Source of the DNA: a virus | DNA length: 36,446 bases | IMG/VR virus record: IMGVR_UViG_3300044647_000290 | Location: 1 to 36,446 of that record | Strand: one strand, 5' to 3' | Part shown: piece after piece, positions 23,248 through 36,446 of the stretch | Layout of the letters: each line of letters opens with the position of its first letter | Numbering within the stretch: the first letter of the stretch is position 1 | Notes under the pieces: generated by a model | Databases searched by the model: none | What the model was told of the DNA's origin: nothing | The model's input: the letters and a program-made list of their open reading frames with translations, nothing else | Program-made: the position numbers and the translations under genes

Positions 23248-24150
23248 TTAGCCTAAGCCGCCAAGCGGCGTGCCGTTAAGCTCCTTCCCTTTGTTGAGCA
23301 TCATTCGTAATCTAAACAGCGCCATGCGTTCAAGTTGCTGCACCCGTGATGGCGCAACGCCAAGCTTTGCAGCGATCTCAGCCCATGTCAGTGGTTGCTG
23401 TAGCCTACGGCTGCGCACTATAAACTTTGAGCGGTCGTCTAAATACTTATCAATCAACTCAAGCATCTCCTGCGCTTGATGGCTGATGCTAAGTTCATCC
23501 ATATCAATCAATGACTTAGGGTCGGCAATCATGTCAATCAGCGTTAATGTTTCGCTGTTGGCTGATATTGCATCTAAGCTATGCACTGCATGACTGCGGC
23601 GTAGTGCATCATAGATAACATTAATATCAACGCCGATATGTTCTGCTACTTCATTCAATGTTGGTGTGCGTCCTATGCGTTGCCCAAGGTCTGACGTAGT
23701 ACGCGCTATCTTTGCTAGCAGGTCATGCAACCCAGTCGGTAATCTAATCATTGCGTCGCTTTGCGATAGCGCACGTTGGATGCCTTGCTTAATCCACCAG
23801 TAGGCGTAAGTTGAAAACTTATAGCCGCGTGATGAATCAAATAGCTCAACCGCTCTGGCAAGCCCGATATTGCCCTCTTGGATGAGGTCCATGATCTCAA
23901 GTGACTTGCGCCTTCGGTTTTCGTACTTTTTTGCTACATGCACCACTAGCTGTAGGTTGCATTGCATAAACCGTTCACGGGCACGTTGACCGCTACGCAC
24001 CAGCCGCTGCTCTGCATCAGTCAGTGTGCGCTCTAGTTCTTGCAGCTCACGCATCTTGGCAATGCGTCTGCCGTATTGGATCTCTTGGTCCACTGTGAGC
24101 AGTGGATACCGCGCAATCTCGTTAAGGTATCTCTGGAATGATGGGGACAT
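23248..24150 (-). CDS. Sigma-70 family RNA polymerase sigma factor
   Basis: The 300-residue protein has a region 1.2-like start (SFQRYLNEIARYPLLTVDQE), a full region 2 at about residues 57-130 (ERFMQCNLQLVVHVAKKYEN, LIQEGNIGLARAVELFDSSR, FSTYAYWWIKQGIQRAL), region 3 (TLNEVAEHIGVDI) and a region 4 HTH near 252-285 (LTWAEIAAKLGVAPSRVQQL). It resembles cyanobacterial group 2 sigma factors but is shorter. Region 4.1 is weakly conserved. As the near-last gene of the early operon it is well placed to redirect the host polymerase to phage late promoters. Its ATG (24150-24148) overlaps the start of a plus-strand gene. Confidence 0.93.
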   Translation of the reverse strand: MSPSFQRYLNEIARYPLLTVDQEIQYGRRIAKMRELQELERTLTDAEQRLVRSGQRARERFMQCNLQLVVHVAKKYENRRRKSLEIMDLIQEGNIGLARAVELFDSSRGYKFSTYAYWWIKQGIQRALSQSDAMIRLPTGLHDLLAKIARTTSDLGQRIGRTPTLNEVAEHIGVDINVIYDALRRSHAVHSLDAISANSETLTLIDMIADPKSLIDMDELSISHQAQEMLELIDKYLDDRSKFIVRSRRLQQPLTWAEIAAKLGVAPSRVQQLERMALFRLRMMLNKGKELNGTPLGGLG

Positions 24151-26855: not shown

Positions 26856-27062
26856 TCAGTTAGGGGTGATTTGATTGGATTCTTCAAATGCCAGCACTTG
26901 CGCTAGCGGATACCGCACCCGTGGCGTACCAGCAGGAAAGCCGATACGCGGGATGGTGTAGTACCTAGGACCGATGCCGCGTGCGCGTTGGTTTTTGATG
27001 GCTGCTGGTTGCAACCCCCAACGCGCGGCAAGCTGGTCAGTCGTCAGGTACGGCTCAGTCAT
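26856..27062 (-). CDS. HTH DNA-binding protein (excisionase/MerR-type)
   Basis: ATG 27062 overlaps the Bet stop by eight bases (ATGACTGA). The 68-residue product begins MTEPYLTTDQLAARWGLQPA, then AIKNQRARGIGPRYYTI and PRVRYPLAQVLAFEE. The L-T-T-x-Q-L-A-x-R-x-G-x-x-x-x-x-I-x-N-x-R-x-x-G-x-G-P pattern is that of HTH_17 / excisionase-like proteins. It may be a transcription factor or, if the phage is temperate, a recombination directionality factor. No integrase is in the window. Confidence 0.8.
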   Translation of the reverse strand: MTEPYLTTDQLAARWGLQPAAIKNQRARGIGPRYYTIPRIGFPAGTPRVRYPLAQVLAFEESNQITPN

Positions 27063-27810
27063 CAAATGGATCCTCTTCAGCAGTGGCAAAGCTGGCTTCC
27101 TTATCCAGCGCAAGCGCCAGCAGGATCTCCTGCTGCTCATCGGATAGGTCACCCTTACGGGCTTCCATGCGCTCGGTCACTTTGGCTAGGGCTTCCATAT
27201 TGGTCGCCTTTGCAATGGCAGCCTTGCCAGCGGTGAATACCTTGTCATCGCCTGCAGGCAGCGCTGGTGCTGGTGTGCTGGTCACGGTAACAGGCTCGAC
27301 AGCCTGCTCCATCTCATCGCTGCTGTAGACGCCTGAGAGGTCAGCAGGGAACGCCTTTCGCAGTGCTAGGGCCTCGCTGCACTTGGCGATCATCGTGGCG
27401 CCCATCTTGGTCCATAGGCCCTGGCCAGCGTTGTAGTCAGCAAAGCGGGCAACACCAGTGAATGGATGGCTGGCACCCTTGCGCCAGATGGTGGTCTTGG
27501 CCGCAGCAGGTGGCTTGCTGCCAAGCCATACGTCAGTCCACACGCCGTCATCACCGCACCAGAGCGTCTCAGAGCCATCAAGTTGCCCAGTGCGTTCTGC
27601 AATGCTGCGCAAGCCGTCGATGCCGGCTTGGATGGTCATCTTGCCGCCACGCTTGATGGCGTATATCTGCTTGCTGAAGGGGTCAAGCCCAGTCCGCTGG
27701 CAGGCATAGGCAAATAGCCGTAGCTCATCACCGCTGCAGCCAGGTGCAATGGTGGTGCTAATCAGTTGGGTCTGCTCTGGGGTCCAGAGCGCAAGGGAGC
27801 TAGAAGTCAT
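27055..27810 (-). CDS. bet: Recombinase annealing protein, Bet (RecT family)
   Basis: The 251-residue protein has the lambda Bet signature: AYACQRTGLDPFSKQIYAIK, then KMTIQAGIDGLRSIAERTGQ, later ARFADYNAGQGLWTKMGATM and CSEALALRKAFPADLSGVYS. These blocks, in this order, define the Bet/RecT annealases, which pair complementary single strands. The C-terminal tail (ATAEEDPFDD) is acidic and ends in the kind of motif that binds partners. It overlaps the exonuclease gene by 11 bases and the HTH gene by eight. Together with the PD-(D/E)XK protein it forms a two-component recombination system. Confidence 0.93.
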   Translation of the reverse strand: MTSSSLALWTPEQTQLISTTIAPGCSGDELRLFAYACQRTGLDPFSKQIYAIKRGGKMTIQAGIDGLRSIAERTGQLDGSETLWCGDDGVWTDVWLGSKPPAAAKTTIWRKGASHPFTGVARFADYNAGQGLWTKMGATMIAKCSEALALRKAFPADLSGVYSSDEMEQAVEPVTVTSTPAPALPAGDDKVFTAGKAAIAKATNMEALAKVTERMEARKGDLSDEQQEILLALALDKEASFATAEEDPFDD

Positions 27811-28588
27811 CGGAGGTGATAGTTGTGGTGCCGGTAAGCGCCCATTTAGGCAGGCTCAGCGGTTGGATGGTGTTGCCGTAACCAGGCCATTCAGCAATGG
27901 CGCGGCAGTCGGCAATGGTCTGCAGGTTGTTGCGGCGTTCCGCTTCACCATGCAGCGCTGCAGTTTCGTCTAGCTCGTACACGCCAACGGCATACGGATA
28001 GGTTTTCTCAACAGCAATGAACACAAACCGCTCAGCGAAGGTGCCGGCTAGGTAGTGGTTCTGCTGGATGTGGTACCGCCATTGCGCAACTGACTTAGCA
28101 AACCCCTTAGGACTGGCATCAATTGTAGTCTTGAGGTCCACGATGGTGTTGCCGACGTACCAGTCAGGGCGGCACTTGCAGCGCAGTCCGGTTTGGATGT
28201 CATCCCACCAGAAGCTCTGCTCTGCCTTGCCGTCACGCAGCAGTGCTGCAGCAGCTTGATGGCTGCGCACGCTGGCGGCCATTGCTAGCGCCTGCTCCAT
28301 ATCGGTGCTGGTAACGGCTTCGATGCCAGATGCTTGCATCTCGGCTTCCATTTCCTTGCCGGCTTTGGTATTGCGCGGCAGGCAGATGGCGTAGCGCTTG
28401 CTTAGCTCGTCAGGCTCCAGCACCGCGCAATGGGTCAAGCTGCCCAGCTTCATTGCAGCCGTCTGCACTGATGGCGGACGGTCTGGTGCTAGGAAGCGGC
28501 TCCAGTAGTGGTAGGGGCTGGCAGCCACTGCATGGAGGTGGCTAGCGCTGATAGCTGGGTCGGCGTGGTAGTCAGCATTGCTGGTCAT
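27800..28588 (-). CDS. PD-(D/E)XK exonuclease (RecE / exonuclease VIII-like)
   Basis: The 262-residue protein begins DYHADPAISASHLHAVAASP, a typical YqaJ/RecE N-terminus (I-S-A-S-x-L). It has MKLGSLTHCAVLEPDEL and the nuclease core: CRPDWYVGNTIVDLKTT, where the D-W and the D-L-K form the PD-(D/E)XK active site, then QWRYHIQQNHYLAG and VFIAVEKTYPYAVGVYEL. It would resect double-strand ends to give the single strands used by Bet. The gene overlaps Bet by 11 bases. The C-terminal part ends LTGTTTITSDDF. Confidence 0.9.
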   Translation of the reverse strand: MTSNADYHADPAISASHLHAVAASPYHYWSRFLAPDRPPSVQTAAMKLGSLTHCAVLEPDELSKRYAICLPRNTKAGKEMEAEMQASGIEAVTSTDMEQALAMAASVRSHQAAAALLRDGKAEQSFWWDDIQTGLRCKCRPDWYVGNTIVDLKTTIDASPKGFAKSVAQWRYHIQQNHYLAGTFAERFVFIAVEKTYPYAVGVYELDETAALHGEAERRNNLQTIADCRAIAEWPGYGNTIQPLSLPKWALTGTTTITSDDF

Positions 28589-32923: not shown

Positions 32924-33088
32924 ATGCCCCTTTGCCCGCCTTTTAGCCTGCGATTGACGCGGGAGCAGATCCAGTGGCTTGACCAGTGGTCTGGCGATCA
33001 GATGTCACGCGGTACCGCTGTCAGGCTCCTCATTGCCGAAGCCATGCGCCTCCACCGCGACGGCATCCTGCCAGCGACCAAGCGATGA
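32924..33088 (+). CDS. Small ribbon-helix-helix protein, candidate repressor
   Basis: ATG 32924 gives 54 residues: a short strand (FSLRLTREQIQWLDQW) and helices (SRGTAVRLLIAEAMRLHRDG), which is the beta-alpha-alpha pattern of RHH DNA-binding proteins (R-L-T-x-x-Q-x-x-x-L-D ... S-R-x-x-A-V-R-x-L-I-x-x-A). RHH proteins bind palindromic operators as dimers and usually control their own promoter. The palindrome at 32882-32898 lies 26 bases upstream. An earlier TTG start (32873) would fall inside the promoter and is rejected. Its stop overlaps the primase start (ATGA). Confidence 0.75.
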   Translation: MPLCPPFSLRLTREQIQWLDQWSGDQMSRGTAVRLLIAEAMRLHRDGILPATKR

Positions 33089-35574
33089 GCATCCTCGACG
33101 CAGCAAACGGCAGGTGGCCCGACCTGCTGACGGATCTTGCTGGCCTTACCGGTGATCAGTTAACCGATAAGCACCAGCCGTGCCCGTTATGTGGCGGCAA
33201 GGATCGCTATCGTTTTGATGATCAAGACGGTACCGGCTCTTGGTACTGCAATAAATGTGGTGGCAAGGCCTGCACCGGCGGCGGTGGCAATGGCATGGAT
33301 CTACTGATGCGCAAGACGGGATGGGATTTTGCCGAAGCCGCCAAGCGCATTGAGCAGCATCTGGGCCTAGCCAAACCAATGCCTGCGCCACCACTTAAAG
33401 GTTGGGACGCTCACTGGCGCTACAGCGATACGTTTTATGTTGTGCGCCGCGATCTACCAGGCGACGAGAAGGAGATCCGTCCGCTGTGGTTTGACGGCGA
33501 ATCCTGGAAACGCAAGGCACCGCCAGCACCCCGTCCGCTCTACTGGGCTAGGCGCGACCCGACTGCAGCAGTGCTCATATGCGAAGGCGAGAAAGCCACT
33601 GATGCAGCGCAGCGTCTATTCCCATCTGCTGCTTGCTGCTGCTGGCCATCGGGCTGCAAAGCCATCGACAAAACCGACTGGTCACCGCTAGCGGGCAGGC
33701 GTTGCGTCCTATGGCCTGATGCGGATGCACCTGGCCGCGAAGCAATGGCCAAGTTGGCGCCAAAGCTGCTTAAAGCTGGTGCCGCCCAAGTCCGCATTGT
33801 CCAGCCACCTGCTGATGTCGATGAAGGCTGGGATCTGGCAGATGCAACATGGTCGCCAGCAGAGGCATCCACCTATCTCAAGGCCAACCGCTCGACACCC
33901 ATTGAGCTGCCCGAGCTGGCGCCACTGCCTGAGCCTGAGCCAGCCATTGATCCTGATCCGCTGCCGGCGGTAGGCGAATATTTCACCTGCCTTGGCTTTG
34001 ATAACGACTCCTATTACTACCAACCCAACAGCACTGGCCAGGTCACGCGCCTATCACGCAGCAGCCACACCGGCACCAACCTCGTAGCCATTGCGCCGCT
34101 CTCCTACTGGGAATCGCTGTACCCATCCAAAACTGGCGCCAACTGGACCGCAGCAGCCGGCAGTCTCTTTGCGCAGCAGGCTGCAGCAGGTGTCTACAGC
34201 CCTGATCGCATCCGCGGTCGTGGCGCATGGTGGGATAACAAGCGCACCATCCTGCACCTAGGTGACCGGCTCATCGTTGATGGCATCCCGCAGCGCACAT
34301 CCGATGGCATCAGCAACAGCGCCTACATCTATCAGCGCCTTGCCAGGCTGCATGGCTCCAATGGCGCCAAGCCGCTCACCGACACCGAGGCATACGAGAT
34401 CGGTGAGCTAGCCGAGCGCTTCCACTGGGAGGTACCCGCATCAGGCTTGCTACTAGCCGGCTGGGTGACACTTGCGCCAATCTGCGGTGCTCTTGCCTGG
34501 CGCCCTCATGCTTGGCTTACCGCTGGTGCCGGTTCCGGTAAATCGGCAGTGCTTGAGAAGTACGTCGTCCCATTGCTTGGCGACATGGGCCTGATCGTTA
34601 GCGGTAACACCACTGAGCCTGGTATCCGCCAAGAGTTGCGTGCTGATGCGCGACCAGTGGTCTTCGATGAAGCTGAATCCAATGAGCGCTCAGACCAAAT
34701 GCGAATGCAAGCCATCCTTGGCCTTGCCCGCGTTGCATCCAGTGAGTCCAAGGCGCATACCCTTAAAGGCAGTCCAGAAGGTGACAGCCAGCGTTACACC
34801 ATCCGCTCAATGTTTCTTATGAGCAGTATTGCTACCGCACTCAAGCAAGGTGCTGATAAGTCACGCTTTGCGCAGCTTACATTACGCAACTCAAGTGACA
34901 TTGCCAAAGATGAGCGCATTGCTCACTGGGAGTCCCTAGAGCGTGATCTTGATCGCTGCATATCAGAATCAACTGGTCAGCGATTGCAAGCTCGCACTAT
35001 TGCACTCATCCCCACAATACGCGCCAGCGTGCGTATCTTCACCCGTGCAGCAGCAGAAGCATTTGATAGCCAACGCCTAGGCGATCAATACGGCACTCTT
35101 CTAGCTGGAGCATGGTCTTTGCAGTCCAGTGAGGTCGCCACACGCGAGCAGGCATGGAATCTAATTGAGCAGAACAATTGGGAGCCATACAGTCAATCAA
35201 CTGAGGTGCCAGATGAGAAGCGTTGCCTACAACGCATCCTGCAACATCAGCTTCGCGTTGAAGGTGACAAGACCGTTACACGCACCATCAGCGAGCTTGT
35301 GGACCTTGCCTTGCACCACGGCAATGACCTCAACGTGACCGCTGAACTAGCCGAAGCCACCCTTGGCCGCAATGGCATCAAAGCCGAAGCTGGCCTGCTT
35401 TACGTCTCCAATACTGCCAACGCCGTGGCATCCATCCTCAGCGATACGCCATGGAGCAATTGCTGGCCGACGGTGCTTGCGCGCCTAGCTGGTGCTGGCC
35501 GCCCTGGCGTCACCCGATTCCGTGGGATGTCAGGCACCAGCAGGGCTGTCAGCATTCCAGTAGCCACAATTTGA
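33085..35574 (+). CDS. Primase-helicase with zinc, TOPRIM and P-loop domains
   Basis: I start at ATG 33085, which overlaps the RHH stop, to give 829 residues. C33, C36, C55 and C58 form a zinc ribbon (CPLCGGKDRYRF, WYCNKCGG). A TOPRIM-type primase active site follows: E167 in ICEGEK, then D212 and D214 in LWPDADAPGR. The second half is an ATPase: Walker A GAGSGKS at 481-487 and Walker B VVFDEAE at 525-531. A DUF927-like middle (residues 300-470) joins them. It would unwind DNA and prime synthesis. This fusion is usual in phages and some plasmids; it ends just before the repeat array at 35577. Confidence 0.93.
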   Translation: MSILDAANGRWPDLLTDLAGLTGDQLTDKHQPCPLCGGKDRYRFDDQDGTGSWYCNKCGGKACTGGGGNGMDLLMRKTGWDFAEAAKRIEQHLGLAKPMPAPPLKGWDAHWRYSDTFYVVRRDLPGDEKEIRPLWFDGESWKRKAPPAPRPLYWARRDPTAAVLICEGEKATDAAQRLFPSAACCCWPSGCKAIDKTDWSPLAGRRCVLWPDADAPGREAMAKLAPKLLKAGAAQVRIVQPPADVDEGWDLADATWSPAEASTYLKANRSTPIELPELAPLPEPEPAIDPDPLPAVGEYFTCLGFDNDSYYYQPNSTGQVTRLSRSSHTGTNLVAIAPLSYWESLYPSKTGANWTAAAGSLFAQQAAAGVYSPDRIRGRGAWWDNKRTILHLGDRLIVDGIPQRTSDGISNSAYIYQRLARLHGSNGAKPLTDTEAYEIGELAERFHWEVPASGLLLAGWVTLAPICGALAWRPHAWLTAGAGSGKSAVLEKYVVPLLGDMGLIVSGNTTEPGIRQELRADARPVVFDEAESNERSDQMRMQAILGLARVASSESKAHTLKGSPEGDSQRYTIRSMFLMSSIATALKQGADKSRFAQLTLRNSSDIAKDERIAHWESLERDLDRCISESTGQRLQARTIALIPTIRASVRIFTRAAAEAFDSQRLGDQYGTLLAGAWSLQSSEVATREQAWNLIEQNNWEPYSQSTEVPDEKRCLQRILQHQLRVEGDKTVTRTISELVDLALHHGNDLNVTAELAEATLGRNGIKAEAGLLYVSNTANAVASILSDTPWSNCWPTVLARLAGAGRPGVTRFRGMSGTSRAVSIPVATI

Positions 35575-35576
35575 CC

Positions 35577-35841
35577 GTTACGGTCGCCTTTGCTTGTTAC
35601 GGTGCCTGTTACGGTAAAAACCTTGTCGTGGACTGGGTTGTTACGCTTGTTACGCCTGTTACGGTTGCGCGGTAGAGCCCCCCTTATATAAGAAGCCCTA
35701 CCTACCTACTGATCTGCCTGTCCTCTTGTATGTATGTCTCTTCTGAAAAAGGCGTAACAACGTAACAAGCGGCTAAGATCCCGTTGCTGGCGGGCGATCT
35801 CGGGTGTTACGGTAGGCGTAACGCACCGTAACAGGCGTAAC
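35577..35841. repeat. GTTACG repeat array, candidate iteron-type origin
   Basis: Twelve copies of an 8-base unit GTTACGNN (mostly GTTACGGT or GTTACGCC) lie in 265 bases. Forward copies start at 35577, 35596, 35608, 35640, 35649, 35658 and 35806. Reverse copies occupy 35751-35758, 35759-35766, 35815-35822, 35825-35832 and 35834-35841. Most clustered copies are 8-12 bases apart, about one helical turn. The two arms face each other across an AT-rich TTATATAAGAAG (35684-35695). Placement between primase-helicase and clamp genes suits a replication origin; binding sites for the RHH protein at 35850 are the other choice. The stretch holds no gene. Confidence 0.7.
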
Positions 35842-35849
35842 ACCCCCCC

Positions 35850-36134
35850 ATGCAAGAGATCAAAGTTCGTTTTGAGCCCGCTGACCTGACCGCATTGGAC
35901 CACCAAGCGGCAGTAGCAGGCACCAGCCGCTCAGCGTTCATTCGCAACAAAGCGTTAAGCCTGCCGGTTGCACGGTTGAACACGGTGGAGTACCATGCGC
36001 TGGTTGCTGATGCAGTTGGCGCTATGCGCGGTGACTTGCCTCGGCAGCAGGTTGAATATCTCGTTGCTTATGTCATCACCAGACTTGATAAACATCAGCG
36101 CCAAGCAGTCGCCGGTCATCAACCGCTTGCATGA
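35850..36134 (+). CDS. Ribbon-helix-helix / MobC-like DNA-binding protein
   Basis: The 94-residue product begins with a strand IKVRFEPADLTALDHQAAVA, then GTSRSAFIRNKALSL, the RHH pattern of plasmid MobC and relaxosome accessory proteins (I-x-x-R-x-x-x-x-E-x-x-x-(L/I)-x-x-x-A-x-x-x-G-x-(S/T)-x-S-x-F-I-R). A helical C-terminal part with ARLNTVEYHALVADAVGAMR and YLVAYVITRLDKHQ could mediate oligomers. Its start lies eight bases after the last repeat, so it probably binds the array, as an initiator accessory or autoregulator. The next ORF starts inside its 3' end. Confidence 0.75.
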   Translation: MQEIKVRFEPADLTALDHQAAVAGTSRSAFIRNKALSLPVARLNTVEYHALVADAVGAMRGDLPRQQVEYLVAYVITRLDKHQRQAVAGHQPLA

Positions 36135-36288
36135 CTGCATGACGCAAGCGATGGCATATGCCCATGCCATCCGCGACAATGCTCAAGATGACGGCGTGCC
36201 CATCCCCATGGAACTCGTCGCCAGCTTTCAAGCCGATTACAACAACATCATCGCTGCACTCAATGAAGCTCACAATCTCGCAAGCTGA
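36070..36288 (+). CDS. Small hypothetical protein before the clamp gene
   Basis: ATG 36070 gives 72 residues starting MSSPDLINISAKQSPVINRL and ending with IPMELVASFQADYNNIIAALN. A longer in-frame start at 35995 would lie deep in the RHH gene and is less likely. It overlaps the RHH gene by 65 bases and the clamp gene by 26 bases. The product is helical and soluble; I recognise no family. Confidence 0.55.
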   Translation: MSSPDLINISAKQSPVINRLHDCMTQAMAYAHAIRDNAQDDGVPIPMELVASFQADYNNIIAALNEAHNLAS

Positions 36289-36446
36289 TCTAGACCATGC
36301 ACTGCGCACCATTGCGCCCGCAGTAGGTGTCCGCAGCTCACACCCGATCCTTGACTGCTGCCTTATCACTGCTGGCGGTGGCAATGTCACCATCACCGGC
36401 TACAACCTTGACCTAGGCATCACGGTGACCATTCCAGCAGTGGTTA
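36263..36446 (+). CDS. dnaN: DnaN-type sliding clamp, N-terminal part (runs off the window)
   Basis: The open frame from ATG 36263 to the window end encodes 61 residues: MKLTISQADLDHALRTIAPA, then VRSSHPILDCCLITAGG, and TITGYNLDLGITVTI. This has the MK(L/V)...Q..L...L..I...V..R..HP(I/V)L....(L/I)......(L/I)T..(D/N)L.(L/I)GI pattern of the first domain of bacterial beta clamps, closest in feel to cyanobacterial DnaN. It overlaps the preceding gene by 26 bases on the same strand, so it is likely a phage gene rather than the host locus. The rest of the protein is not visible. Confidence 0.8.
   Translation, partial: MKLTISQADLDHALRTIAPAVGVRSSHPILDCCLITAGGGNVTITGYNLDLGITVTIPAVV

Follow-up and report, generated by a model that had tools for sequence, protein, structure and literature searches.

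A candidate iteron origin in a tailed phage and its proposed reader, the C-terminus of the neighbouring primase-helicase

What does a dense block of a six-base word do among the replication genes of a tailed phage, and which protein reads it? The question arises from virus record IMGVR_UViG_3300044647_000290 of IMG/VR (the window, analysed over its whole length of 36,446 bases), in which 12 exact copies of GTTACG lie at 35577-35841, between a gene for a primase-helicase and genes for a small ribbon-helix-helix (RHH) protein and a sliding clamp (Table 1). The best reading is an iteron origin in the style of Staphylococcus aureus pathogenicity islands (SaPIs) and phage-inducible chromosomal islands (PICIs), placed inside a complete tailed phage: the array is very probably the phage replication origin, and the C-terminus of the neighbouring primase-helicase would be its reader.

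The GTTACG array and its counterparts in relatives

A recount of the window gave seven forward and five reverse copies, exactly as in the original prediction, which a model had made from the letters alone. The left arm is wholly forward and the right arm mostly reverse (five reverse words and one forward), again as described there, and the spacing of mostly 8-12 bases holds for seven of the 11 start-to-start steps, the remaining four being 19, 32, 95, and 45 bp. The added claim that the repeats share one face of the helix did not survive, as the commonest spacing is 9 bp and not 10-11, and helical phasing was discarded as a feature of the array. In windows simulated by a second-order Markov model, used as the chance null for word density, GTTACG reached at most three copies per 275 bp (n = 60) versus the 12 observed, and the best count of any hexamer per 275 bp was five to seven in 15 such windows. 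Outside the array, 16 more copies are scattered along the window, for which 10.4 would be expected in total. The first repeat starts 3 bp past the stop codon of the primase-helicase gene, and the array thus lies 3' of its proposed initiator, as in a SaPI/PICI replicon.

Homologues of the primase-helicase were gathered from 80 viral contigs, the cultured Synechococcus phage S-H1, and bacterial genomes. Many of the 80 viral relatives showed a two-armed array at the equivalent place, downstream of the primase-helicase gene, with a recurring order (tabulated for the window and 25 relatives) of three forward words, an AT-richer segment, two reverse words, one forward word, and three reverse words. 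The word itself differs by group, and within any one array nearly every copy carries the change, the variants being GTTACG, mixtures of GT[TA]ACG, CTAACG, CT[TG]ACG, and CTCACG. Phage S-H1 has a CTAACG array directly behind its primase gene. In addition, Bdellovibrio phage phi1422 presented the same layout with the word GTTACC, and a related array in phage KLER1-1 uses GTTAGC. Comparison with related phages, which had been proposed as a check, thus found the array and its layout kept in place while the word varied as a set. No array was found downstream of the helicase in the distant myophage relatives Dolphis, PHB04, ST4, and Touem01; therefore, the coupling of array and helicase is not universal in this helicase family.

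Some minor sequence features accompany these arrays. In the inter-arm segment (35680-35735 of the window, relatives, and phi1422), a GTATGTAT-like stretch was seen by eye beside the right arm and a CTATAAGAGAG-like one beside the left arm, and both recur in several relatives even when the iteron word differs. Palindromes of the form CCCTTGC...GCAAGGG were also present between the groups of sites in several relatives, for instance downstream of the primase gene in L029 and L049.

Table 1. Features of the array and of the adjoining genes in the window.
Feature	Position	Strand	Remarks
Primase-helicase, proposed initiator	33085..35574	+	829 aa from M34 of listed open reading frame (ORF) 32986-35574
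C-terminal winged-helix domain (residues 743-862), proposed iteron-binding domain	35212..35571	+	AlphaFold2 core pLDDT (predicted local distance difference test) 96-98
Exchangeable cassette (primase C-terminus and array), approximate extent	35270..35870	+	Mapped on relatives, from the L029/L037 and L029/L039 identity profiles
R844 codon	35515..35517	+	Arg beside all G-words; beside C-words Trp or Tyr, and His in distant relatives
S856 codon	35551..35553	+	Ser/Ala with G-words; Lys/Arg/Gln with C-words
Left arm, outer group	35577..35613	+	Three forward GTTACG (35577, 35596, 35608)
Left arm, inner group	35640..35663	+	Three forward GTTACG (35640, 35649, 35658), 9-bp spacing
Inter-arm segment, proposed melting region	35664..35752		CCCCCTTATATAAGA ... 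CTTGTATGTATGTCTC; GC minimum 0.43; AT-richer in relatives
Right arm, inner pair	35753..35766	-	Two reverse GTTACG (35753, 35761)
Right arm, single forward GTTACG	35806..35811	+	Lone forward site at the equivalent place in many relatives
Right arm, outer group	35817..35841	-	Three reverse GTTACG (35817, 35827, 35836)
NikA/RHH-like small protein	35850..36134	+	Pfam NikA-like 1.5e-6; adjoins the array, which some relatives have without it
5' part of the sliding-clamp gene (DNA_pol3_beta), cut off by the window end	36263..36446	+	ORF 36158-36445: Pfam 5.5e-6, PHROG 947 8.6e-13

The primase-helicase, the residues that track the word, and the exchanged block

The primase-helicase likely starts at M34 of its listed ORF, since in 21 relatives the tblastn match has an in-frame stop among its first 33 codons, shortly before the corresponding residue. 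The protein matched Zn_Ribbon_Prim in Pfam (8.5e-14) and PHROG 35358 (4e-137), and combines a zinc ribbon, a Toprim domain, a helicase that is Rep/Cch-like by fold only, and a C-terminal winged-helix domain. AlphaFold2 models reached a mean pLDDT of 80.9 for the full-length protein (56 aligned sequences) and 89.3 for its C-terminal 151 residues (69 sequences). The best Foldseek match of the full model was the Rep helicase of SaPIbov1 (8tch, E 2.1e-4), and VIA-align placed on it both Cch of the staphylococcal cassette chromosome mec (SCCmec; 5dgk, Z 10.1 over 417 residues, reaching model residue 828) and SaPIbov1 Rep (Z 9.0 over 359 residues). The Toprim part matched DnaG and T7 gp4. Poxvirus E5/D5 also appeared among the fold matches of the model (E about 0.002-0.03), and no match to Pfam D5 was found in the window protein.

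The alignment of 82 of these proteins showed two columns, 844 and 856, that separate completely the proteins adjoining words with initial G (G-words) from those adjoining words with initial C (C-words); none other of the 829 primase columns did so. In the predicted structure, the last beta-hairpin, a putative wing, carries these residues on its two strands, and class-specific residues (848-852) surround the turn between them. In a phylogeny of the primase core (residues 34-740), the first base of the word switched five times, and both residues switched with it in all five independent pairs (sign test p 0.0625, the minimum for five pairs). A held-out set of 29 relatives from bacterial genomes, retrieved with peptides of the core and with no regard to tail or word, obeyed the rule in 27 cases (20 with Arg and a G-word, seven with His and a C-word), the exceptions being L344 (Tyr with a G-word, alignment ambiguous) and L347 (Lys with a G-word). 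In the combined set including distant relatives, the rule for residue 844 held in 77 of 79 rows, which are related by descent, so that these agreement counts are not probabilities; in phi1422 and L140, where the aligner gave a gap or a shift, the residue was assigned by eye. These comparisons indicate that the word varies with the final residues of the primase-helicase, whose C-terminal domain would then set the specificity.

Close relatives revealed how the word changes. L029 (GTTACG) and L037 (CT[TG]ACG) share about 90% DNA identity over the 2.2 kb upstream of the primase stop codon and again from +300 onward, with a primase core and an RHH protein that are nearly identical (94% for the latter), whereas between -300 and +300 around the stop the identity falls to about 50%, with one stretch of 74%. 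The converse was found for L029 and L039, both with GTTACG, which are 97-99% identical in the -300/+300 block and less so around it. Therefore, the exchanged block corresponds to the last ~100 residues of the primase and the array, and these profiles indicate that tail and array were swapped together as a single cassette of ~600 bp.

Origin or something else?

The analogy with known systems is what leads from array to origin. In SaPIs, the Rep helicase uses its C-terminal domain to read an origin of iterons that immediately follows the rep gene (PMC7581432), and PICI origins consist of two sets of iterons flanking an AT-rich region, an organisation described as common to no other known bacterial replicon (PMC6092414). 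A helicase of matching fold was found here, together with an array that resembles both. By this analogy, the C-terminal winged-helix domain would bind the GTTACG words in both arms and so load helicase rings facing the AT-richer inter-arm segment; the helicase would melt this segment and move outward, the fused DnaG-type primase would lay primers, and a replisome, equipped here with a phage-encoded sliding clamp, would take over. As the reader domain and the array are contiguous in the DNA, they would be exchangeable as one unit, and a swap would change the specificity of the origin while leaving the rest of the replication gene and the neighbouring genes untouched. The iteron-type phage origin of the original prediction thus finds good support in the comparison, with a layout conserved at the equivalent place beside a helicase of the SaPIbov1 Rep/SCCmec Cch fold. 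Its remark that a plasmid-like origin would be unusual in a phage was partly right, although a parallel is known in the satellite replicons of SaPIs and PICIs.

Several observations weigh against this proposal. The inter-arm segment, predicted to be AT-rich, is just mildly so in the window (lowest GC 0.43 at 35700-35759), and the stronger bias (60-88% AT) belongs to many of the relatives. The GC skew, another suggested check, has no turning point at the array, either in the window or in the genome of S-H1, and is uninformative on the origin. A sequence-profile search of solved structures detected no Protein Data Bank sequence related to the primase-helicase, and the C-terminal domain alone gave no significant Foldseek match; in a second-look alignment, it best matched the C-terminus of 8tch, weakly (Z 4.9). 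On a tree of the tail, just two of seven word changes fall on well-supported branches, where residue 844 changed the same way in nearly every pairing and never in the opposite one. Finally, tail and array are adjacent, and part of their covariation could be co-inheritance by linkage.

That linkage alone makes word and tail travel together, with another phage or host protein as the reader, is nevertheless very improbable: the exchanged block does span both, but of 829 columns the rule involves just two, both in a predicted winged-helix beta-hairpin, it holds among relatives with 25-55% tail identity from several phyla, and a host reader would not explain why words differ among phages with near-identical flanking genes. 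A reader of another kind, the MobC/RHH protein, had been proposed originally. Its gene is the next one, starting 8 bp past the last repeat, its match is to the NikA-like family, and RHH proteins often bind short repeats, so it might act on the array as initiator, partition protein, or autorepressor. However, the RHH and clamp genes are both missing downstream of the GTTACG arrays of L031, L032, L033, and L043, and so are not needed for the array; RHH proteins 92-94% identical stand beside different words (GTTACG in L029, CT[TG]ACG in L037 and L030), and no RHH column separates the word types (best mutual information 0.74 of 0.94). The proposal of an RHH reader is thus very probably wrong, and we rejected it, as the least credible of the alternatives.

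A role in control is unlikely as well, though less so. The C-terminus of the primase-helicase could bind the array for operon autoregulation, copy-number control, or as a decoy, and not to start replication; iteron-bound initiators frequently have control roles, and the array, placed between co-directional genes, might contain a promoter that serves the RHH and clamp genes. Against this, no sigma-70-like promoter was found in 35500-35900 (though cyanophages may use promoters of another type), arms that face inward on either side of an AT-richer segment suit an origin, the layout is kept even with quite different downstream genes, and the fold relatives are self-loading initiators. An iteron plasmid replicon was also considered and discarded: the flanking genes showed only primase, RHH, and clamp domains in Pfam, with no Rep_3-type initiator gene (RepA/Pi/TrfA type) beside the iterons.

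Known systems, host, and wider distribution

The preferred reading, an origin read by the primase-helicase C-terminus, differs from its models in several respects. The window encodes a major head protein, a tape measure, a minor tail protein, and a central tail fibre J (PHROG), that is, a full-phage gene set of lambdoid type for head and tail in place of that of a satellite, so that the replicon is PICI-like in its working, but the element itself is not a PICI. In addition, a Toprim-type primase is fused to the helicase, the hosts are probably picocyanobacteria, and no sequence relationship was detected with the solved Rep structures. SCCmec Cch is the closest solved fold across helicase and C-terminus, and the isolated C-terminal domain of Cch2 binds repeats downstream of its own gene (PMC7581432); however, these belong to a staphylococcal chromosomal cassette with a separate primase-polymerase, and just three iterons of 5 nt were described for Cch2. 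In RepA of the Vibrio satellite PLE (phage-inducible chromosomal island-like element), the initiator's DNA-binding domain varies together with the origin, and the two are exchanged as a module (PMC8263062), as reader domain and origin appear to be here, although the PLE domain is N-terminal, with three semi-palindromic iterons of ~30 bp, in a satellite.

More distant parallels come from phage biology. The lambda O protein is a phage initiator with type-specific iterons inherited alongside it, but these lie inside the O gene, and O is neither a helicase nor a primase. The alpha protein of P4 is, like the protein studied here, a primase-helicase, and also binds origin repeats (ori/crr) via its C-terminus; we regard it as a lead only. 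P4 itself is a satellite.

A literature search for published work on iteron origins found none on cyanophages and matched only the Vibrio PLE paper (PMC8263062); for the word GTTACG itself, the papers listed appeared to concern primers and 16S. Self-loading initiators that have their iterons downstream are already known from SaPIs and PICIs; to judge from the literature searched, the new elements are such a system in complete picocyanobacterial phages, the two-residue rule, and the exchange cassette. Few phage origins are known outside model systems, and many are guesses based on skew or repeats; in this case, sequence allowed the origin and its reader to be assigned together, and the residue-base rule predicts the word from the protein. 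A replicon of SaPI/PICI style would thereby be placed in complete phages, versus an organisation described only for PICIs (PMC6092414), and the natural specificity-switch pairs L029/L037 and L039/L054 offer material for asking what drives the turnover of origin types, a turnover also reported for the PLE satellites (PMC8263062).

The host of the phage is probably a picocyanobacterium, because the closest bacterial-genome matches to the primase were mostly from Cyanobium, Synechococcus, and Vulcanococcus. Diverged copies of the primase-helicase, several per genome and many with their own arrays, were seen in picocyanobacteria, as in L306, L308, and L340 (one Synechococcus genome) or L319, L321, L334, L337, and L355 (Cyanobium sp. 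Cruz-8D1), prophages and satellites not being distinguished among them.

A search of 2.9 million viral contigs for loci with three TGTTACG words close together gave at least 120, and dense two-strand arrays were present in 61 of 120 among the matches listed, compared with one of 80 for a scrambled-word control. At least 37 of the 61 lay no more than 300 bp from the 3' end of a gene for a replicative helicase; some are on the same contigs as the primase relatives, so 61 is not a count of independent cases. The adjoining helicases belonged to the family described here, to AAA_25 with PrimPol or Toprim, to a DUF5906/D5 type, and to a VapE type, and examples of the other families with arrays are L126:7412-9355, L143:9079-11061, L108:7626-9425, and L197:1458-2969. 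This suggests that the same word serves in unrelated replicons. A broader and more tentative picture, which we regard as possible and not as probable, is that picocyanobacterial tailed phages swap origin-type cassettes of ~600 bp whose wing would follow a code for the first base (Arg reading G, an aromatic residue or His reading C), GTTACG having been reached separately by unrelated helicase families. If so, origin types would act like incompatibility groups, letting phages escape satellites, origin-mimicking decoys, or origin-directed nucleases.

As for the remaining genes of the window, the RHH and clamp genes (35850-36446) are mostly found as a pair beside the array, or else neither is present, in the relatives (L006-L085), as a single module would be. 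Pfam also identified a phage-encoded sigma-70 family protein with regions 1.2 to 4 (23248-24150, minus strand), and a RecT beside a DUF3799 PDDEXK protein (27055-28588, minus strand). The latter two are likely a recombination pair, which could serve the exchange of cassettes.
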